DNA of 64,000 bases from contig NZ_JAUSAR010000013.1 in the NCBI RefSeq assembly GCF_030652515.1, positions 62,001 through 126,000 of the forward strand. Direction: 5' to 3'. Shown piece by piece: positions 33,922-41,641 of the stretch (within the stretch, counting starts at the first letter, position 1; each line of letters starts with the position of its first letter). Source of the stretch: Aquabacterium sp. Lineage in GTDB: Bacteria; Pseudomonadota; Gammaproteobacteria; Burkholderiales; Burkholderiaceae_C. Both the position numbers and the translations under genes were made by a program. Under the pieces are notes generated by a model that saw nothing but the letters and a program-made list of their open reading frames with translations, did not search any database and was not told the origin of the DNA.

Positions 33922-34138
33922 GGGGAGCGACAAGGAAGCTGAAAAACAATGCATCGAACTGGATGGCAATGTATCGAACTTCTTGCCGACAAGGGCGATC
34001 ACTCGTTGACCGCGGTGCGGTTCATAAGTCATAGCTTGTGGGCGTAAGGCACAAGAATGGATTGTGCTATGTTTCAATTTGTACGAAACGACAGCGTTGG
34101 CTAGCAGCCTGGATTTCGAAAAAACAAAGGGAGCGGCG

Positions 34139-35746
34139 ATGGCACGTAGGAGCGGGTTCGAGTCATTCCTGAAGGCAGCGGCACGCGCCTCTGCAACGGC
34201 TGAACGCGAGCGGCAGCGGGCCGTTCGAAATCAGTTGACCCAGGCACGCCAGCTTGAGCGCCATGCACGCATGGCACGTAATCAGCAGATTCGCGACATG
34301 CGGGAAGCCGACAAATTGGCCAAGCGAGAGTACCTTGAGGACCGGATTGCCGAAACGTCCGACCTCAACAGTGAACTGAGCGATCAGGTAGAAGAGCTTG
34401 GCGGCATCCTTGCGCACACCTTGGCTGTGAACGACAAAATCAACTTCAACGGTTTGCGACGCACCGAGACCTTTGGCGCGTTCAAGCCGCTCGCCGATAC
34501 GATTCCCGGCGAGGCGCCTGCGAAGCGAACCGTTGCGGCGCCTTCTGGGCTGTCGAAGTTTTTTCCAGGTAGCAAGCGAAAGTACCAAGAGAACTTGGCC
34601 CAAGCTGAGCAGGACTTCAATGCAGCTTTGGTTAAGTTCGAATCGCAAGAGCACGCCAAGCGCGAAAGACTGGCAGCGTTGAAACAGAACTACGAGGAGC
34701 GCAAGAAGCAATACGAAGCAGAGCAGCAAGGGCGCAATGCGGAGGTTGATGCGTTCGAGGCCTCGTACATGAGCAAAGACGTGGACGCCGTGGTCGCTTA
34801 CAGCGAAATGGTTCTGGCGCGATCCGAGTACCCAGCCGAAGGTTTTCCGCAGAAATATAAGGTGGCTTACAACGCCCAGTCTAGCGAGCTGGTGGTGGAG
34901 TACGACCTGCCGGAACCTTCTGTGGTGCCCAGGGTGGCCGAGTACAAGTATGTGAAAAGCAAGGACGAGATCGAGACCAAGGCACGCAAGCCGACCGAGA
35001 TCAAACAGATTTACCAAGATGTCGTGGCGTCGATTGCCTTACGCACCATCCATGAGTTGATGGAAGCCGACCAGGCCGACGCCGCAGTGTTGGTGACGTT
35101 TACCGGGGTGGTGGACACGACCGATCCTGCCACAGGCCGCCCCATCAGGGTGCCCGTGATATCGGTACGTGCGCCTAAGGCCGACTTCACAAGCATTCGC
35201 CTGGACAAGGTGGACAAAGCGGCTTGCCTCAAGAACCTGGGTGCCAAGGTGTCGGCCCGGCCCGACGAGTTGCAGGCCGTCAAGCCCCTTGTTGAATTCA
35301 ACATGGTCGACCCTCGCTTCATCGATCAAGGCGAAGCGCTGTCCGGCCTGGAGTCTCGGCCCAATTTGATGGACATGACACCATCTGAATTTGAAGTGCT
35401 CGTGGCCAACCTGTTCGGCAAGATGGGCCTGGATAGCAAGCTCACGCGGGCATCGAGGGACGGTGGCGTGGATGCTGTCGCATTCGACACGCGGCCCGTG
35501 CTGGGAGGAAAGGTGGTGATCCAAGCCAAGCGCTACAAGAACACCGTGGGTGTTGAGGCCGTGCGCGACCTGTATGGGACGATGATGAATGAAGGTGCCA
35601 ACAAAGGCATTCTTGTCACGACCAGCAGCTACGGGGCGGATGCGTATAACTTTTCGAAGGACAAGCCTGTCGAGTTAATCGATGGGGGCGGGTTGTTGTT
35701 CTTATTGCGAGAGCATGCGGGTGTTGCGGCACGGATTGCGGTTTGA
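34139..35746 (+). CDS. Mrr-like restriction endonuclease with long coiled-coil N-terminus
   Basis: The 535-residue protein is read from the ATG at 34139, preceded by GGGAG; the frame is open to 34064. Residues about 1-100 and 150-205 are charged coiled coils rich in Arg, Glu and Gln. The middle (about 210-400) is a mixed domain I do not recognise. The C-terminal 120 residues are an Mrr-type PD-(D/E)XK nuclease: MTPSEFEVLVANLFGKMGL, then RDGGVD with D445, and VVIQAKRYK with Q462 and K464. Mrr-type enzymes cut modified or foreign DNA, so a defence role is likely. It marks the left side of an accessory island. Confidence 0.85.
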   Translation: MARRSGFESFLKAAARASATAERERQRAVRNQLTQARQLERHARMARNQQIRDMREADKLAKREYLEDRIAETSDLNSELSDQVEELGGILAHTLAVNDKINFNGLRRTETFGAFKPLADTIPGEAPAKRTVAAPSGLSKFFPGSKRKYQENLAQAEQDFNAALVKFESQEHAKRERLAALKQNYEERKKQYEAEQQGRNAEVDAFEASYMSKDVDAVVAYSEMVLARSEYPAEGFPQKYKVAYNAQSSELVVEYDLPEPSVVPRVAEYKYVKSKDEIETKARKPTEIKQIYQDVVASIALRTIHELMEADQADAAVLVTFTGVVDTTDPATGRPIRVPVISVRAPKADFTSIRLDKVDKAACLKNLGAKVSARPDELQAVKPLVEFNMVDPRFIDQGEALSGLESRPNLMDMTPSEFEVLVANLFGKMGLDSKLTRASRDGGVDAVAFDTRPVLGGKVVIQAKRYKNTVGVEAVRDLYGTMMNEGANKGILVTTSSYGADAYNFSKDKPVELIDGGGLLFLLREHAGVAARIAV

Positions 35747-35858
35747 GTGAGTTGCCCGAAAGACCTTTCAGGTGGGGTTGGTCAACTTTCGAGTCGGCGC
35801 TGTCGATGCGGGCAGAATTCAAAAAATTGATGGCGGCTCTGGCTCGCGGCTTGCGTCC

Positions 35859-36839
35859 ATGAAAACTTTCCTCGTACTTGTCGGCTTGCCCCTGGGCACA
35901 ATTCTCTACATCGTCCTCAATGTACTCATTGTTCGTTGGCTCATGAGCACTGGGCGAGAAATCGCAAGTGCCACTTTCCATTTTCTAAAGCGCTTCTTCC
36001 GGATTCAGTTTCAGTCGCTGTCGTCTATGCGGATCTGGACAACGGCTACTTTGCAGTTTGCGGCGATAGCGGTTCTCGCTTTGCTTTTGCAGCAGCCTCT
36101 TCAATTGCTTGCGCTTGCTAGCCTTCTGTTGGGCTATGTGTTCTTTGTCTCGGCGCTCTCCCTTTCATTGCTGGCTCAGTTTCCCTACTTCCGGAAGGCG
36201 TCGAACGATGTGATCGTTAAGCTTTGCCTGGTTGCACTGCCAGTCTTCTTTGGGTTCATTGCAAGGGGATATGCGTCTTCGTGGGTCGGAGAGGTCACCG
36301 GCGTAAGTGCCTCCAACGGCGGTAGCGCCGTCTTTGCTGCTACAGCTTTTCTCTTGTGCTTGGTAGCCGCTGCGTTGCTTGCACTCTCGGCCTTGGTATT
36401 TGAGCTTGCCATGTTGGCCTCCTTGGTCGTTAGTGATAAACGAGGTAGTTACAAGGTGGGACTGATGCTCCTGGCTGCCGGTAGCTTTGTCGGAACCTAT
36501 GGCGCCGCATATGCGGCGATACAGCTACCAAGTTCGCGATTGGGGAATCTTTTGCTTGCCGCTGTGGTGTACGAATTCGACGCAGGTCCCGCAATGCATT
36601 GCGATTTAAGCAAGGAAGAGAAGTCAATTGCGACTGGGGACGAGCCTTTCCTGAAAGCGCTGTATCTGTCTACATCACAAGAAAAGGCATTGCTGGTGAA
36701 GCGTGGGCCTGCCCTCTTCAGGCCTGTTGTATTACGCAATTTGAAGGCAAACGACGCAAGCTTGCTGCTTCAGCCGTTGCGTATAGCTGAGTGTTTTAAG
36801 GTGACAGTGACGCCGTCACGGACCTCCAAAGCATCATAA
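35859..36839 (+). CDS. Hypothetical multi-span membrane protein in the defence-like island
   Basis: The 326-residue protein, read from the ATG at 35859 (MKTFLVLVGLPLGTILYIVL), has about six hydrophobic segments within the first 245 residues, then a soluble tail of about 80 residues (EFDAGPAMHCDLSKEEKS ... LLQPLRIAECF). I do not recognise a family. Codon use is less GC-biased than in the T6SS region, suggesting acquisition. It follows the Mrr-like gene by about 110 bases on the same strand. A membrane partner could be the effector of an abortive defence, but nothing in its sequence proves that. Confidence 0.6.
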   Translation: MKTFLVLVGLPLGTILYIVLNVLIVRWLMSTGREIASATFHFLKRFFRIQFQSLSSMRIWTTATLQFAAIAVLALLLQQPLQLLALASLLLGYVFFVSALSLSLLAQFPYFRKASNDVIVKLCLVALPVFFGFIARGYASSWVGEVTGVSASNGGSAVFAATAFLLCLVAAALLALSALVFELAMLASLVVSDKRGSYKVGLMLLAAGSFVGTYGAAYAAIQLPSSRLGNLLLAAVVYEFDAGPAMHCDLSKEEKSIATGDEPFLKALYLSTSQEKALLVKRGPALFRPVVLRNLKANDASLLLQPLRIAECFKVTVTPSRTSKAS

Positions 36840-37277: not shown

Positions 37278-38714
37278 ATGGTGAGCAGCGAAGACATTGA
37301 AGAGCTAAAGGCGAAGCGCATCTGCTTTCAGTGCGTCGGTGAGGCGTACCTCTCCGACCAGATGGAACGCGATGGCGCGGTCGCACAGTGCGCGTACTGC
37401 CAGGAGACGGAAAAGACATTCTCTGTCGGCGCCCTGGCTGACCGCATCGAGTCCGCGTTCGAGGATTACTACATCCTGACTCCCGATGAGCCGGACACGT
37501 GGGAGGAAGCACTGATGTCGGATATGGAGTCGGGCTACGAGTGGGAGCGCGGCGGGGAGCCTGTGGTTGATGCGATAGAGAACGCGGCCGGAGTTCCGCA
37601 TCGTGCGGCGGAAGACATCCAGGCGATCCTTGATGACCGGCACAACGATTTCGACTTGGCCTCTGGGTGGGAGGACACCGAGTTTTCTTCGAAGACCTAC
37701 TACGCGAAGAGGGGAACAAGAATGTTCGCCTGGGAGGAGACTTGGTGCGCATTCGAGCACTCGCTCAAGACCGAAGCACGGTTCTTCAGCCGTAATGCGA
37801 CCGTGCATTTGGCGTCCGTGTTCGGTAACATCGACAAATTGAAGACTAGGAAGGGCCGCTCACTCATTGTGCAGGCAGGGCCGAAGCGTGTGCTTAGCCA
37901 TCTGTACCGCGCGCGCGTCTTCCAGTCAAAAGACAAGCTCCAAGAGGCGTTGTGTCGACCGGATCAGCATCTCGGTTCTCCTCCGACGCGGCTAGCCAGC
38001 AGCGGCAGGATGAATGCTCGCGGCATCTCGGTCTTCTACGGCGCGACGGCTTCGCGCGTGGCGATCGCAGAAGTTCGTCCGCCAGTGGGCAGCGCGGTCG
38101 CCGTCGCAAAGTTCGATATCACTCGGCCGCTCCGCCTTCTTGACCTCACCGCTCTGGAGAACACCTGGGACGATGGGAGCATATTCGACCCGACCCTCAA
38201 GGACCGACTCGAGCGCGTGGAGTTCCTCCAGTCGCTTGGGGACCGGATGACGCAGCCAGTTATGCCCGACAACGAGGCCTTCGACTACCTTCCAACGCAG
38301 GCCATCGCCGATTTCCTCGCAACGCAGAACGAACCGCAGCTCGACGGCATCGTCTTTCGCTCCGTGCAGGTCAAAGGCGGGCGTAACGTCGTACTCTTCC
38401 ACAAGGCCGCGCGTGTCGAGGTTATCTGGTTCCCGGAGGGCACCGTGATCGAAGCGGACAGCATCCTCTACCACGTCAACGAATATGCCCCCCCGCCGTC
38501 TAACCGTTCGCCTGCGAACGATCATGACGACTGGCTTGGCGGGCAGCCATTCCTGGGCCCGAGCTACCACTCCCGTGATTACGACTTCCGAGATGTAGCC
38601 CTCCGCGTTGATCCTGCGTCCGTCACGGTAAATGAAGTTGACTGGGGCAGTTACCGCTGCACCGCATACAAGGTCTCGCGGCATCGACATGAGAAGCCCA
38701 AGCCTAAGTTCTGA
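37278..38714 (+). CDS. HEPN/RES N-terminal domain protein with C-terminal RES (NAD-consuming) domain
   Basis: The 478-residue protein has an N-terminal Cys-containing segment (ICFQCVGEAYLSDQM, QCAYCQET) and an acidic helical region to about residue 210 that fits the HEPN/RES N-terminal architecture. A RES domain follows (YRARVFQ, then MNARGISVFYGATASRVAIAEVRP, and the later YLPTQAIADFLAT). RES toxins such as MbcT and ParT degrade or ADP-ribosylate from NAD+. The usual Xre antitoxin is absent; the fused N-terminus may replace it. A GGAGG lies 6 bases before the ATG. The neighbours suggest an anti-phage or stress-toxin role. Confidence 0.8.
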   Translation: MVSSEDIEELKAKRICFQCVGEAYLSDQMERDGAVAQCAYCQETEKTFSVGALADRIESAFEDYYILTPDEPDTWEEALMSDMESGYEWERGGEPVVDAIENAAGVPHRAAEDIQAILDDRHNDFDLASGWEDTEFSSKTYYAKRGTRMFAWEETWCAFEHSLKTEARFFSRNATVHLASVFGNIDKLKTRKGRSLIVQAGPKRVLSHLYRARVFQSKDKLQEALCRPDQHLGSPPTRLASSGRMNARGISVFYGATASRVAIAEVRPPVGSAVAVAKFDITRPLRLLDLTALENTWDDGSIFDPTLKDRLERVEFLQSLGDRMTQPVMPDNEAFDYLPTQAIADFLATQNEPQLDGIVFRSVQVKGGRNVVLFHKAARVEVIWFPEGTVIEADSILYHVNEYAPPPSNRSPANDHDDWLGGQPFLGPSYHSRDYDFRDVALRVDPASVTVNEVDWGSYRCTAYKVSRHRHEKPKPKF

Positions 38715-39012: not shown

Positions 39013-39714
39013 TCATCGTTCAGCTTCGCTTGAGAAATACACCCGATTCCATTCGATTGCGCGTTTGCGCCAATGGGTCTCGATGGCCTGCGTGAAGTCT
39101 GCGCGGACGAGCTTAGCCCTTAAGTCACACCACTGCGCAGATTCCCGGCGAATGACTACGCCTTCTAGGGGCCCCTCACGATATTGGCTGGAGCGTGTGG
39201 CCACCAGTTTTTTCAGTGAGGCGGTGGTGTACCGCCCGAATGCGACCTGCGGCACCGTAGCCAGCCTTGCCGAATGCGCCAGCGCATTGCGGCGTTCGCT
39301 GCTCCAGAAACGACCTGCGAACCGGTCATACACATCAAACAGCAAGAACCAATCAGGCAGTGCAGCGTAGTCCAGTGTATGACGCGCAGCACACCACTCG
39401 CCAAACACAATGATGTTGGGCGTCAGAACGCAGCGCAGCGCTTCGCCATGCTGGGCCAGCCATGCGGGGAGCTTGGCGAACTGCCCAGCGTGGGGCTCGG
39501 CCAGATACTGGCCCCGGTTTTGGGCGCGCAGGCTCCCATCCGGCGCCAGAGAAAGACCCAGATTTGCGCCATCCAGCTTTTCTTCCACCACTACATTGCT
39601 TTCCAGCAAAGCTTGCACGTCGGTAGGCGAAAGCACTTTGTCATCGCGCGGCGTGTCATGACCTAGCCAGGCCAAATGGGGAGTGTGGGGAAATCGAAAG
39701 AAGTCTCTATCCAT
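39013..39714 (-). CDS. Rnl2-type RNA ligase family protein, third gene of an ATPase-PIN-ligase operon
   Basis: The 233-residue protein has the nucleotidyltransferase motifs of RNA ligases: motif I KLDGAN with the AMP-accepting K46, then R67 in AQNRG, E106 in FGEW, FDVYD (126-130), motif IV EGVVIR (184-189) and motif V KLVR (201-204). It can therefore be expected to seal RNA ends after self-adenylylation. Its ATG is 5 bases after the stop of the PIN-domain gene, so it is made from the same transcript as a probable RNase and an ATPase. That suggests it repairs or modifies RNA cut by the PIN protein, possibly as a safety or reset step. It is shorter than T4 Rnl2, and no C-terminal specificity domain is evident. 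Confidence 0.85.
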   Translation of the reverse strand: MDRDFFRFPHTPHLAWLGHDTPRDDKVLSPTDVQALLESNVVVEEKLDGANLGLSLAPDGSLRAQNRGQYLAEPHAGQFAKLPAWLAQHGEALRCVLTPNIIVFGEWCAARHTLDYAALPDWFLLFDVYDRFAGRFWSSERRNALAHSARLATVPQVAFGRYTTASLKKLVATRSSQYREGPLEGVVIRRESAQWCDLRAKLVRADFTQAIETHWRKRAIEWNRVYFSSEAER

Positions 39715-39719
39715 TGCAT

Positions 39720-40247
39720 TCAGCCCGGCAGCTGGGGGATAGGTTTCTCCGGGAACTTATTGCAATAGAACTTGCAGACGTCATCCGCACACAAGAAGTC
39801 GACCTCAACGCCTTTGGCCCGAAGAGCAGGCCACCAATCCAGCCATTTGCAGTCTGCCGCCTGCCAGATCGAGGGCTTGTGTTGATGCGCATGGGCTACG
39901 GCCGCGAACTTTCGATCAGGAGCGTCGAACAATGGCTCCAAAGCTGGATCCGGGAATTCGGCAAAGCAGTTCTTAGTGTTTTCGTTCAGGGTGACCTGCT
40001 CGACCTTTTTCGAGCCTGATTCCCGCAGCAACCACTTTAAGAAAAGATCCCCAGGCCCCCTGGCCGGTTTGAGGCTGGTCTTGTTCTGATACTCACCTAA
40101 GATGCGGAAACCATCGTCGATAACGGTAATCCCCCGCTGTTGCATGTCCTGCAGTCGTTTCACGCATTCAATCACGCAGTCAGGTGAAATATCCTCATGC
40201 AACCCGTTGGCAACCAAGAGCACGTTGGTATCAATCACCGCTTTCAC
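39720..40247 (-). CDS. PIN-like nuclease, second gene of an ATPase-PIN-ligase operon
   Basis: The 175-residue protein starts with GTG in a GTGA overlap with the ATPase stop, implying translational coupling. It has a PIN-domain acidic set: D6 in MKAVIDTNVLL, E52 in RILGEYQN, D111 in DAPDRKFAAVA and D132 in QAADCKWLDW. PIN proteins are Mg-dependent ribonucleases, often toxins. No antitoxin gene is present; the ATPase may restrain or trigger it. The target could be tRNA or mRNA, given the adjacent RNA ligase. The last 25 residues hold C154 and C161 and a KFPEKPIPQLPG tail. Confidence 0.8.
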   Translation of the reverse strand: MKAVIDTNVLLVANGLHEDISPDCVIECVKRLQDMQQRGITVIDDGFRILGEYQNKTSLKPARGPGDLFLKWLLRESGSKKVEQVTLNENTKNCFAEFPDPALEPLFDAPDRKFAAVAHAHQHKPSIWQAADCKWLDWWPALRAKGVEVDFLCADDVCKFYCNKFPEKPIPQLPG

Positions 40248-41641
40248 AGGGCACCGCCTTGCTGGCTGCTTTGTTTCTTGCGCTTCATTGCGGCAATGGT
40301 GCGCCCAGCGATATCTGCCATCTCATCGCCGAAGAAATGTTCGGGCCAATTCTCGATCTCGCCAAACATGTTTAGCCTTAGTGGTTCCAGTTCTGTAGTT
40401 GCCCCGACGCGACGGCAGAAGTACACCGCCACGTCCTCTGGCTTAACCATTTCTTCGGCCATTCGGCGCTGCAAGCGGTTTAAGAAGTGCTCTGAGTGAC
40501 TCTCTACAATCAACTGCACGTCACGCGGCTTACCATCCTCACAGGCCTGGGTTGCTGAAATGAAAACGTCAGCCAACTCAGCCTGAACTTGCGGATGCAG
40601 GTGGATCTCAGGTTGTTCCATCCACACGGTGGAATGAGGCGGACAGTAGAAGGCCTGCACCAGCGCCGGTAGCACCTGAGAAATGCCAAAACCCACATCG
40701 GTGATCTTTACCTCCGGGGCTTTGGCATGGGACTTCACCAGTACCTCGTACTCTTTGCGCCCCACCGCCACGGGCCGCACAGCGAAGTCGTCAATTACCC
40801 CTAGGTCCTTAAGCCATGCCGCTATGAATTCGGCAAAGCCTTTGGTGTGATGTCCAGCCTTACGATTGAGGCGGCGGCCTTCCCCCTGTGCCGCCAAAAT
40901 AGCCGCCACGGCATACTCACCCATTTGCCCAACGCTGGCTGGCATGTCACCTGACCATTGGTAAATGCGCTGGGGATGGCTGCGTAGCGGTCCCAGGTAG
41001 GATATTCGTTCCAGCATGCTCTCAGCGGCCAATGCGAAGTCCACCAGAAAACCGCCGTTCTTGTACCGGGCCATGCTGGTGTCGGAAAATCGATAGAATT
41101 TTTCGGGCTCCTCAAGTGGCCATTTTCGTCCGTCGGCCATCTTGAAGCCGTAATGCGTAGATGACAGGTTGAGCTTTCGTTTCTCGTCGCGCTCAAGCGC
41201 AACGTCAATCACCTCCTTGGTCCCCGACGATAGCGAGTAGCGCAGCGCCTGAACTTCCGGTTGCTCCGCCTTGTTGGCCATCATGGTCACATCCAACCGC
41301 ATGCGGTCCCCTTGGTAGCGGGAACCGGCTTGCAATGGGTCGCGCACATCCAGAGCTTTGGGCAAGGTCCAACCTAACTCAAAGGAAAGGGCTTGTTTCA
41401 GATCGTGGCCATGTAGACAATCTGTGAAGGTGCCCAAATCGATCAGAGATGAGGCATCGCCCAGATGCAGCGCGCGCTTTCGGTCTGTCGAGCGCGCTGT
41501 TTGCTGCAAGGCCAGCAAGAGGTGGCCAAGACTACTTTTGCCGGCACTGTTAGCTCCGAAGAGCACGGTGAGAGGCGCCAATCGAATCGGTCCTGTGTCT
41601 TTCCAGGCCTTAAAGTTCTTAATGCGTAGGTGAGTGAGCAT
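40244..41641 (-). CDS. AAA-family (DUF3696/OLD-like) ATPase, first gene of an ATPase-PIN-ligase operon
   Basis: The 465-residue ABC/SMC-type ATPase has Walker A GANSAGKSSL (29-38) and a signature-like DVGFGISQVLPAL. Walker B is STVWMEQPEIHLHPQ, followed by an H-loop region LIVESHSEHFLNRL. The C-terminus NMFGEIENWPEHFFGDEMADI is typical of DUF3696-type AAA ATPases. Such ATPases act as sensors or regulators in anti-phage systems (compare AriA of PARIS and PtuA of Septu). No TOPRIM nuclease is fused. A GGAG lies about 10 bases before the ATG. It is followed, with overlap, by a PIN nuclease and then an RNA ligase. Confidence 0.88.
   Translation of the reverse strand: MLTHLRIKNFKAWKDTGPIRLAPLTVLFGANSAGKSSLGHLLLALQQTARSTDRKRALHLGDASSLIDLGTFTDCLHGHDLKQALSFELGWTLPKALDVRDPLQAGSRYQGDRMRLDVTMMANKAEQPEVQALRYSLSSGTKEVIDVALERDEKRKLNLSSTHYGFKMADGRKWPLEEPEKFYRFSDTSMARYKNGGFLVDFALAAESMLERISYLGPLRSHPQRIYQWSGDMPASVGQMGEYAVAAILAAQGEGRRLNRKAGHHTKGFAEFIAAWLKDLGVIDDFAVRPVAVGRKEYEVLVKSHAKAPEVKITDVGFGISQVLPALVQAFYCPPHSTVWMEQPEIHLHPQVQAELADVFISATQACEDGKPRDVQLIVESHSEHFLNRLQRRMAEEMVKPEDVAVYFCRRVGATTELEPLRLNMFGEIENWPEHFFGDEMADIAGRTIAAMKRKKQSSQQGGAL

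Follow-up and report, generated by a model that had tools for sequence, protein, structure and literature searches.

The window analysed here, a 64,000-nucleotide stretch of the Aquabacterium sp. contig NZ_JAUSAR010000013.1, carries a three-gene operon that encodes an ATPase, a PIN-fold protein and an Rnl2-type RNA ligase. The ATPase and the PIN protein form a pair that is already listed in the PADLOC library as candidate HEC-03 and is not new, whereas the ligase is a conserved third part of the locus, unlisted in the libraries searched. The operon is mobile and recurs in bacteria. Trees and DNA comparisons indicate that its ATPase-PIN blocks have been exchanged repeatedly beside one retained ligase lineage.

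Organization of the three-gene locus

The ATPase gene (40244-41641, reverse strand) starts with ATG and encodes 465 residues with AAA_15/AAA_21 similarity and a DUF3696 C-terminus; its product is the predicted sensor or gate. It is followed by the gene of the PIN-fold protein (39720-40247, reverse strand; 175 residues, GTG start), the predicted RNA-cutting effector, and by the ligase gene (39013-39714, reverse strand; 233 residues, ATG start), the product of which is the predicted RNA-sealing part. All three reading frames are open and overlap or abut, as the sequence-only reading of this DNA had described. The ATPase stop and the PIN start share the four bases GTGA (40244-40247, reverse strand), and five bases (39715-39719, reverse strand) separate the PIN stop from the ATG of the ligase. 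The GTGA overlap likely couples the translation of the ATPase and the PIN protein. Overlap or abutment of these two genes is found in 76 of 91 relatives, and the PIN and ligase genes lie no more than 25 bases apart in 95 of 97 relatives; gaps of 87 and 90 bases separate them in the other two.

The ATPase and PIN proteins belong to candidate HEC-03

The best PADLOC match of the ATPase is HEC-03B (expectation value (E) 8.7e-130, residues 1-459), and in Pfam the protein matches AAA_15 (E 2.8e-19), AAA_21 (E 1.9e-16) and DUF3696 (E 1e-9). HEC-03A is the sole PADLOC family matched by the PIN protein (E 3.1e-23), residues 1-159 of 175 aligning to positions 1-157 of the 159 in the model. Both members of HEC-03, an A-type PIN gene and an adjoining B-type ATPase gene, are therefore present, with a four-base overlap. 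The sequence-only reading knew of no named system with these three components; this has to be withdrawn for the ATPase and the PIN protein, and a wholly novel three-gene system is ruled out, but the claim stands for the ligase, which matches no PADLOC model. The HEC-03 models seen in PADLOC are A and B only, described as "Hma-embedded candidate", and the literature search found the label in one paper only, within a list.

The predicted structure of the PIN protein has the PIN fold, and the protein carries four acidic residues. A follow-up structural comparison placed it closest to VapC toxins; Foldseek alone did not place the model firmly. A Pfam search gave zero matches at E 0.1, so the score of the Pfam PIN family was not reached, and a search of solved-structure sequences with the PIN profile returned one match only, a designed protein, which is chance-like. 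Residues E52, D111, D44 and D108 are invariant in 96 of 96 relatives, D6 is kept in all 94 aligned rows of the 96 (two are gapped), and position 132 is aspartate in 90 and glutamate in the other six. The four acidic residues named from the sequence (D6, E52, D111, D132) are thus present in the window protein and conserved among relatives. The same is true of the ATPase, in which K35, E342 and E345 are invariant in 70 of 70 relatives.

Structure and conserved residues of the RNA ligase

The ligase matches the Pfam family PF09414 (Rnl2-type) with E 8e-32 and 111.2 bits, against a curated cut-off of 27. All 105 close relatives share residues K46, D48, G49, N51, R67, E106, E184 and K201 without exception. 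Motif I reads K46-x-D48-G49-x-N51, and with R67, E106, E184 and K201 it makes up what we take to be nucleotidyltransferase motifs I, Ia, III, IV and V; the earlier assignment of K46, R67, E106 and motifs III-V is upheld. Sealing-motif residues are also invariant (105/105), apart from one row that is unreadable at R189 and R199. The structural model fits the T4 Rnl2 fragment 1s68, residues 1-233, and neither the 233-residue protein nor its model has the separate C-terminal domain that full-length T4 Rnl2 possesses. Three weak matches (E 6e-5 to 2e-3) were obtained when solved-structure sequences were searched with the ligase profile.

The ligase accompanies the ATPase-PIN pair

A search with the window ligase alone matched 20 of 399 genomes of the order, 11 of them closely (E 3e-59 or better). 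In ten of these 11 genomes, the ATPase and PIN genes lie directly upstream of the ligase; in the eleventh, a contig end cuts the locus and a PIN piece is still there. Seven of the remaining nine genomes encode a protein with HD and AAA_33 domains beside the ligase (L018, L019, L020, L021, L022, L023 and L025; L021, which duplicates L022, was left out of scoring, and the start of its next gene is similar), and the other two contain a ligase in two pieces (L024/L028) or a weak match (L026). In the reverse direction, the PIN query matched 6 genomes among 369 of the class and 13 among 399 of the order, 18 distinct genomes in all. The ligase gene adjoins in 13 of the 18, and a contig end cuts one locus (L171).

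The survey was extended with a search based on a ligase alignment, from which the best 80 of 497 confirmed GTDB relatives (L029-L108) were used together with 50 viral-contig loci and plasmid regions; many loci have only 1.5 kb of flank. After 33 of 204 ligase rows had been removed as duplicates, 171 remained, 105 close (at least 230 bits) and 66 below this score. A PIN gene is directly upstream of 97 of the 105 close ligases, and both PIN and ATPase genes accompany 91, so the triad treated as one unit by the sequence-only reading does recur elsewhere. The alignment was built mostly from triad ligases, and the fraction 97/105 therefore describes close relatives only. Three of the 97 (L012, L083, L101) have contig-cut PIN pieces only, and two of the eight ligases lacking a PIN match (L058, L109) begin at a contig end. 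The conserved gene order in the order-wide and close-relative surveys rules out that the three genes are chance neighbours.

The partners of the distant ligases are different. By the same models, none of the 66 lower-scoring rows has a PIN or ATPase neighbour; many of these rows are weak matches, and at least five are pieces (two in L024, one each in L027 and L191, and a second frame in L043). A strong HD+AAA_33 neighbour (221-618 bits) is found in 14 of the 66, seven of which had built that model, and nine more have weak matches (19-25 bits). An HD+AAA_33 protein is beside none of the 105 close ligases, some of which have 1.5 kb of flank; other healing enzymes were not searched for.

Triads were found on plasmids of Aeromonas, Azotobacter, Tistrella and Rhodococcus, including conjugative plasmids of Aeromonas and Rhodococcus. 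A DNA search of the E. coli collection with the Lelliottia operon (L049) gave no match. One possibly damaged triad has its ATPase in two frames (genome G570, L167). In the literature listings examined, the titles and the starts of abstracts name no PIN-ligase operon, although the full texts of listed papers may; the likeliest source of an earlier mention, Burroughs and Aravind 2016 on RNA damage and repair in conflicts, was not covered.

Two ATPase-PIN types share one ligase lineage

The PIN proteins fall into two groups, 57 of type a, which includes that of the window, and 39 of type b. ATPases longer than 250 residues split into matching groups with zero crossing, and two are unplaced (L061, L175). 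The best match of type b ATPases is still HEC-03B (E 3e-87, 6e-81), and type b PIN proteins match HEC-03A weakly (E 8e-5 to 2e-7). On the ligase trees, both of which are quick searches, the partner type changes 21 (109 rows) or 22 times (96 rows), and the starred branches alone require at least four changes. A ligase tree that holds all type b rows together is rejected by the approximately unbiased (AU) test (AU p 6e-14), which rules out that each ATPase-PIN type was paired only once, with a ligase clade of its own.

Pairwise scores among 69 full triads agree with this picture: the ATPase and PIN scores correlate with a Spearman coefficient of 0.83, but the ligase correlates with these at 0.17 and 0.09. 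Within type a, the three genes co-vary about equally (0.77-0.79), so that exchange is indicated between the types and not within type a; within type b they co-vary weakly (0.11-0.32). The nearest ligase carries the other partner type in 18 of the 69 triads. Seventeen pairs of ligases are at least 78% identical and have different partner types; PIN identity is 21-30% in 15 of these pairs, and the PIN alignments are short in the other two. In two Variovorax loci (L031 and L033), DNA identity is 88.5% over the 2.4 kb that run downstream from the ligase start and 87.7% over 1.06 kb of the upstream flank. The ATPase and PIN stretch between these flanks gives no DNA match, and the encoded proteins are 34% and 21% identical. 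A ligase that is kept while the ATPase-PIN types change fits action on a shared RNA product better than a private protein contact.

Variant loci and an optional fourth gene

PIN and ligase genes without a detectable ATPase are present at L062/L064, which is one locus in two related genomes (L064 is covered for 1.7 kb upstream), and at L105. At L106, a PIN remnant of 39 residues lies directly upstream of the ligase, which indicates that this copy derives from a PIN-ligase locus. The ligase of L097 is positioned behind PDC-S46. Schlafen AlbA_2 and HATPase_c_4 proteins are encoded directly after these two ligases without an intact PIN partner (L097:4453-5652 and L106:6712-8358). At L043:3969-6735, a PD-T4-4 pair and then the ligase adjoin a large Eco57I-type methyltransferase and a DUF3800 protein. 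L070:3759-6132 encodes, in a row, an RmrA-like helix-turn-helix-peptidase protein, a PIN protein and the ligase; this PIN protein matches PF01850 with E 3e-4, just below the curated cut-off, and has zero PADLOC matches.

HNH_2 genes overlap or follow the ligase stop in loci of both partner types (L033:6699-7496, L039:2763-3530, L056:6690-7457 and others). HNH_2 may be an optional fourth gene that travels with the ligase, which would fit the HNH domains fused to Rnl2-type ligases that are described for phages (PMC7824862).

Genomic setting

The operon is located in a low-GC island of the window, with a GC fraction of 0.55-0.59 at 34-42 kb and 0.62-0.68 in the rest of the 20-64 kb region. The same island contains an Mrr_cat type IV restriction enzyme gene (34064-35746; PADLOC mREase_IV, E 8e-84) and a gene for a protein without a Pfam or PADLOC match (35772-36839). 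A gene encoding a RES domain protein with a HEPN_RES_NTD1 N-terminus in Pfam (37278-38714) converges on the ligase gene, and its product is possibly a separate toxin. The low GC content, the restriction enzyme and the HEPN/RES protein bear out the accessory island with defence-type genes recognized earlier.

For triads in general, a simple longest-frame rule was used to pick 97 neighbour proteins, and these match 73 PADLOC families at E 1e-15, compared with 11 families for 97 control proteins from stretches of 10 genomes; these are counts of families and not of proteins, since related models overlap. The 25 of the 73 families that were listed include HNH (11 proteins, some of the matches being the fourth gene itself), Argonaute (3), HEC-05 (3), PDC-M55C (3) and RtcR (2), and, with one protein each, JetA, JetB and type I specificity. 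The control matches are mostly overlapping Cas12f-type models on one protein each. The two proteins that match RtcR resemble the CARF regulator of the RtcBA RNA-repair operon.

Proposed function

The three proteins may constitute a mobile defence-type operon in which a gated PIN ribonuclease cuts host RNA and a dedicated ligase reseals it, limiting self-damage; we put the chance of this at close to, and just short of, even. What the analysis shows is the make-up of the locus, its joint conservation, the retention of catalytic residues, the folds predicted for it and the repeated exchange of ATPase-PIN blocks; the gating, target, RNA ends and defence role are inferred, as follows. On the pattern of PARIS and other ATPase-gated systems, the ATPase would hold the PIN ribonuclease in check and free it on a phage-linked trigger. 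Judging by its fold, the PIN protein would cut structured host RNA, most likely a loop of tRNA or rRNA as VapC enzymes do. The two-metal cut of PIN enzymes generally leaves 5'-phosphate and 3'-hydroxyl (OH) ends, although this is disputed for VapC. Such ends could be sealed directly by the ligase, so that leaky cuts would be mended in uninfected cells and the damage would be reversible once the trigger passes.

Ligases of the Rnl1/Rnl2 kind require 5'-phosphate and 3'-OH, and the ends made by other ribonucleases need kinase or phosphatase helpers (PMC7824862). The restriction of HD+AAA_33 proteins to the distant ligases suggests that a likely healing partner is retained where ligases depend on healed ends and is dispensed with by PIN-linked ligases. 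This contrast of partners would be expected if PIN-made ends are ready to seal, and it is the strongest comparative point in favour of the mechanism. Recent work has validated PIN ribonucleases in other systems of phage defence (PMC13092281). The cut-and-reseal logic of the sequence-only reading is plausible in that it fits the co-conservation, kept residues and partner contrast, but it is contested on end chemistry.

Several observations weigh against this mechanism. T4 Rnl2 trimmed to its nucleotidyltransferase module seals 5'-phosphate ends poorly, and the model of the ligase consists of this module alone, ending in one helix and a low-confidence tail. VapC family members are described as leaving 5'-OH ends (PMC6459853), and the finding that VapC activates RtcR has been taken to agree with tRNA fragments ending in 2',3'-cyclic phosphates (PMC7790460); an Rnl2-type ligase could not join 5'-OH or 2',3'-cyclic phosphate ends unaided. 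The L043 ligase sits behind a PD-T4-4 pair, for which PMC10952713 gives a PD(D/E)XK nuclease, and the partner of this ligase therefore need not be a ribonuclease. Ligases of L042 and L060 have no neighbour matching the ATPase or PIN queries. Of 105 loci, 29 have a same-strand HNH_2-type gene downstream of the ligase, directly next to it in 23 (six of the 29 genes had built the model, and some matches are fragments), so that the ligase may work for a different unit. Nor is a ligase obligatory, because ATPase-PIN pairs exist without it in 4 of the 18 PIN-matching genomes (L002, L003, L165, L168; about 1.4 kb downstream covered). On one of three Acinetobacter plasmids examined, HNH_2 takes the place of the ligase: L201:3627-6284 of Acinetobacter soli contains the ATPase (annotated as two pieces), PIN and HNH_2 genes and no ligase, behind an N-6 methylase. 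In the literature searched, no experiment on HEC-03 defence and no tested defence activity was found.

Three other explanations were weighed. The ligase could belong to the attack, adenylylating, circularising or mis-joining the PIN-made ends and so blocking phage repair of the cut RNA. It is a nucleotidyltransferase module only, the corresponding module of T4 Rnl2 can adenylylate on its own, and the ligase-less pairs indicate that a protective antidote is not strictly needed. Nevertheless, we regard an attacking ligase as unlikely, given its invariant sealing motifs, compatible though these are with such a role, and the loci with PIN and ligase but no detectable ATPase (L062, L064, L105), which make more sense for a ligase that limits the damage done by PIN. 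A ligase that travels in defence islands as a passenger for general RNA repair, protecting the host from various ribonucleases (phage and rival toxins included), and that lies beside PIN genes as a matter of operon convenience, also seems improbable. The lineage does accompany both ATPase-PIN types, and close ligases occur with other systems (PD-T4-4 at L043, PDC-S46 at L097) or no seen partner (L042, L060, L106), but a passenger fits less well with a PIN gene directly upstream in 97 of 105 loci, within 25 bases in 95 of them, or with the PIN remnant at L106.

The ATPase-PIN pair might, lastly, be a plain addiction or dormancy module without an anti-phage role, and the ligase its post-cut antitoxin. 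Although the VapC-like PIN model and the triads on Aeromonas and Rhodococcus conjugative plasmids are in keeping with addiction, the best library match is a defence candidate, triad neighbours match many more (overlapping) PADLOC families than controls do, and the island of the window encodes a type IV restriction enzyme, all of which make a module of this kind a distinctly poor prospect.

Returning to a resealing ligase, we tentatively propose the broader possibility, with somewhat more doubt than belief, that it is a portable antidote built into at least two distantly related ATPase-PIN defence cassettes, and perhaps into nuclease systems of other kinds, mending self-cut host RNA and staying in place while the cassettes swap. 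If so, immunity would be reversible rather than suicidal, since the ligase would mend RNA cut by its own system. RNA repair in the conflict of phages and bacteria is known mainly as phage counter-defence, such as T4 Pnkp/Rnl1 against PrrC, or as separate repair cassettes. Placed beside a ribonuclease in a defence operon, a ligase would give the host an undo step of its own, and reversible abortive infection would be testable by one active-site mutation. The swapped ATPase-PIN stretch of Variovorax beside a kept ligase is a natural experiment on the rebuilding of defence loci. With a close ligase in 11 of 399 genomes of the order, ten of them with ATPase and PIN, and further copies on conjugative plasmids, the family is common enough for such tests.

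Comparison with known systems

The absence of a match to PARIS, PrrC and RloC noted from the sequence is confirmed by the partner genes and domains. PARIS (AriA/AriB) also has an AAA_15/AAA_21 ATPase beside a nuclease, and AriA models match the ATPase of the window with E 1e-21. The PARIS nuclease is a TOPRIM protein, whereas a PIN nuclease and a ligase are found here; PARIS is ruled out by the lack of AriB, the neighbour matching HEC-03A alone in PADLOC. PrrC and RloC, with T4 Pnkp/Rnl1, share the logic of an RNA break and its repair by a ligase, but there the ligase is phage counter-defence and needs end healing, while here it is part of a bacterial operon with no HD+AAA_33 protein beside it. 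Both have an AAA_13-type ATPase fused to a HEPN nuclease and are ruled out, as a Pfam scan at E 0.1 finds neither domain in any of the three proteins. The NsnB ATPase model of Menshen (NsnABC) matches the ATPase with E 1e-58, below HEC-03B. Menshen is linked with DUF262 and a predicted OLD nuclease in PMC10952713, and neither was found in a Pfam scan of the three proteins. It is ruled out, since the partners NsnA and NsnC are missing: in PADLOC, the PIN protein matches HEC-03A alone and the ligase nothing.

RosmerTA (RmrA/RmrT) is resembled by the row of RmrA homologue, PIN protein and ligase at L070, but the PIN protein of that locus has no PADLOC match, and we know of no ligase in RosmerTA. 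Cassettes of RNA ligase and HD-AAA_33 protein, which occur on chromosomes, plasmids and viral contigs, contain distant relatives of the ligase, about 30-40% identical. Their partner is an HD and P-loop kinase-like protein instead of a PIN protein, and it accompanies 0 of 105 close ligases. HEC-03 itself has the same adjoining ATPase and PIN proteins, best matched by HEC-03B and HEC-03A; the locus differs from it in the RNA ligase that follows here and in 13 of 18 surveyed genomes, and that also accompanies the type b pairs.

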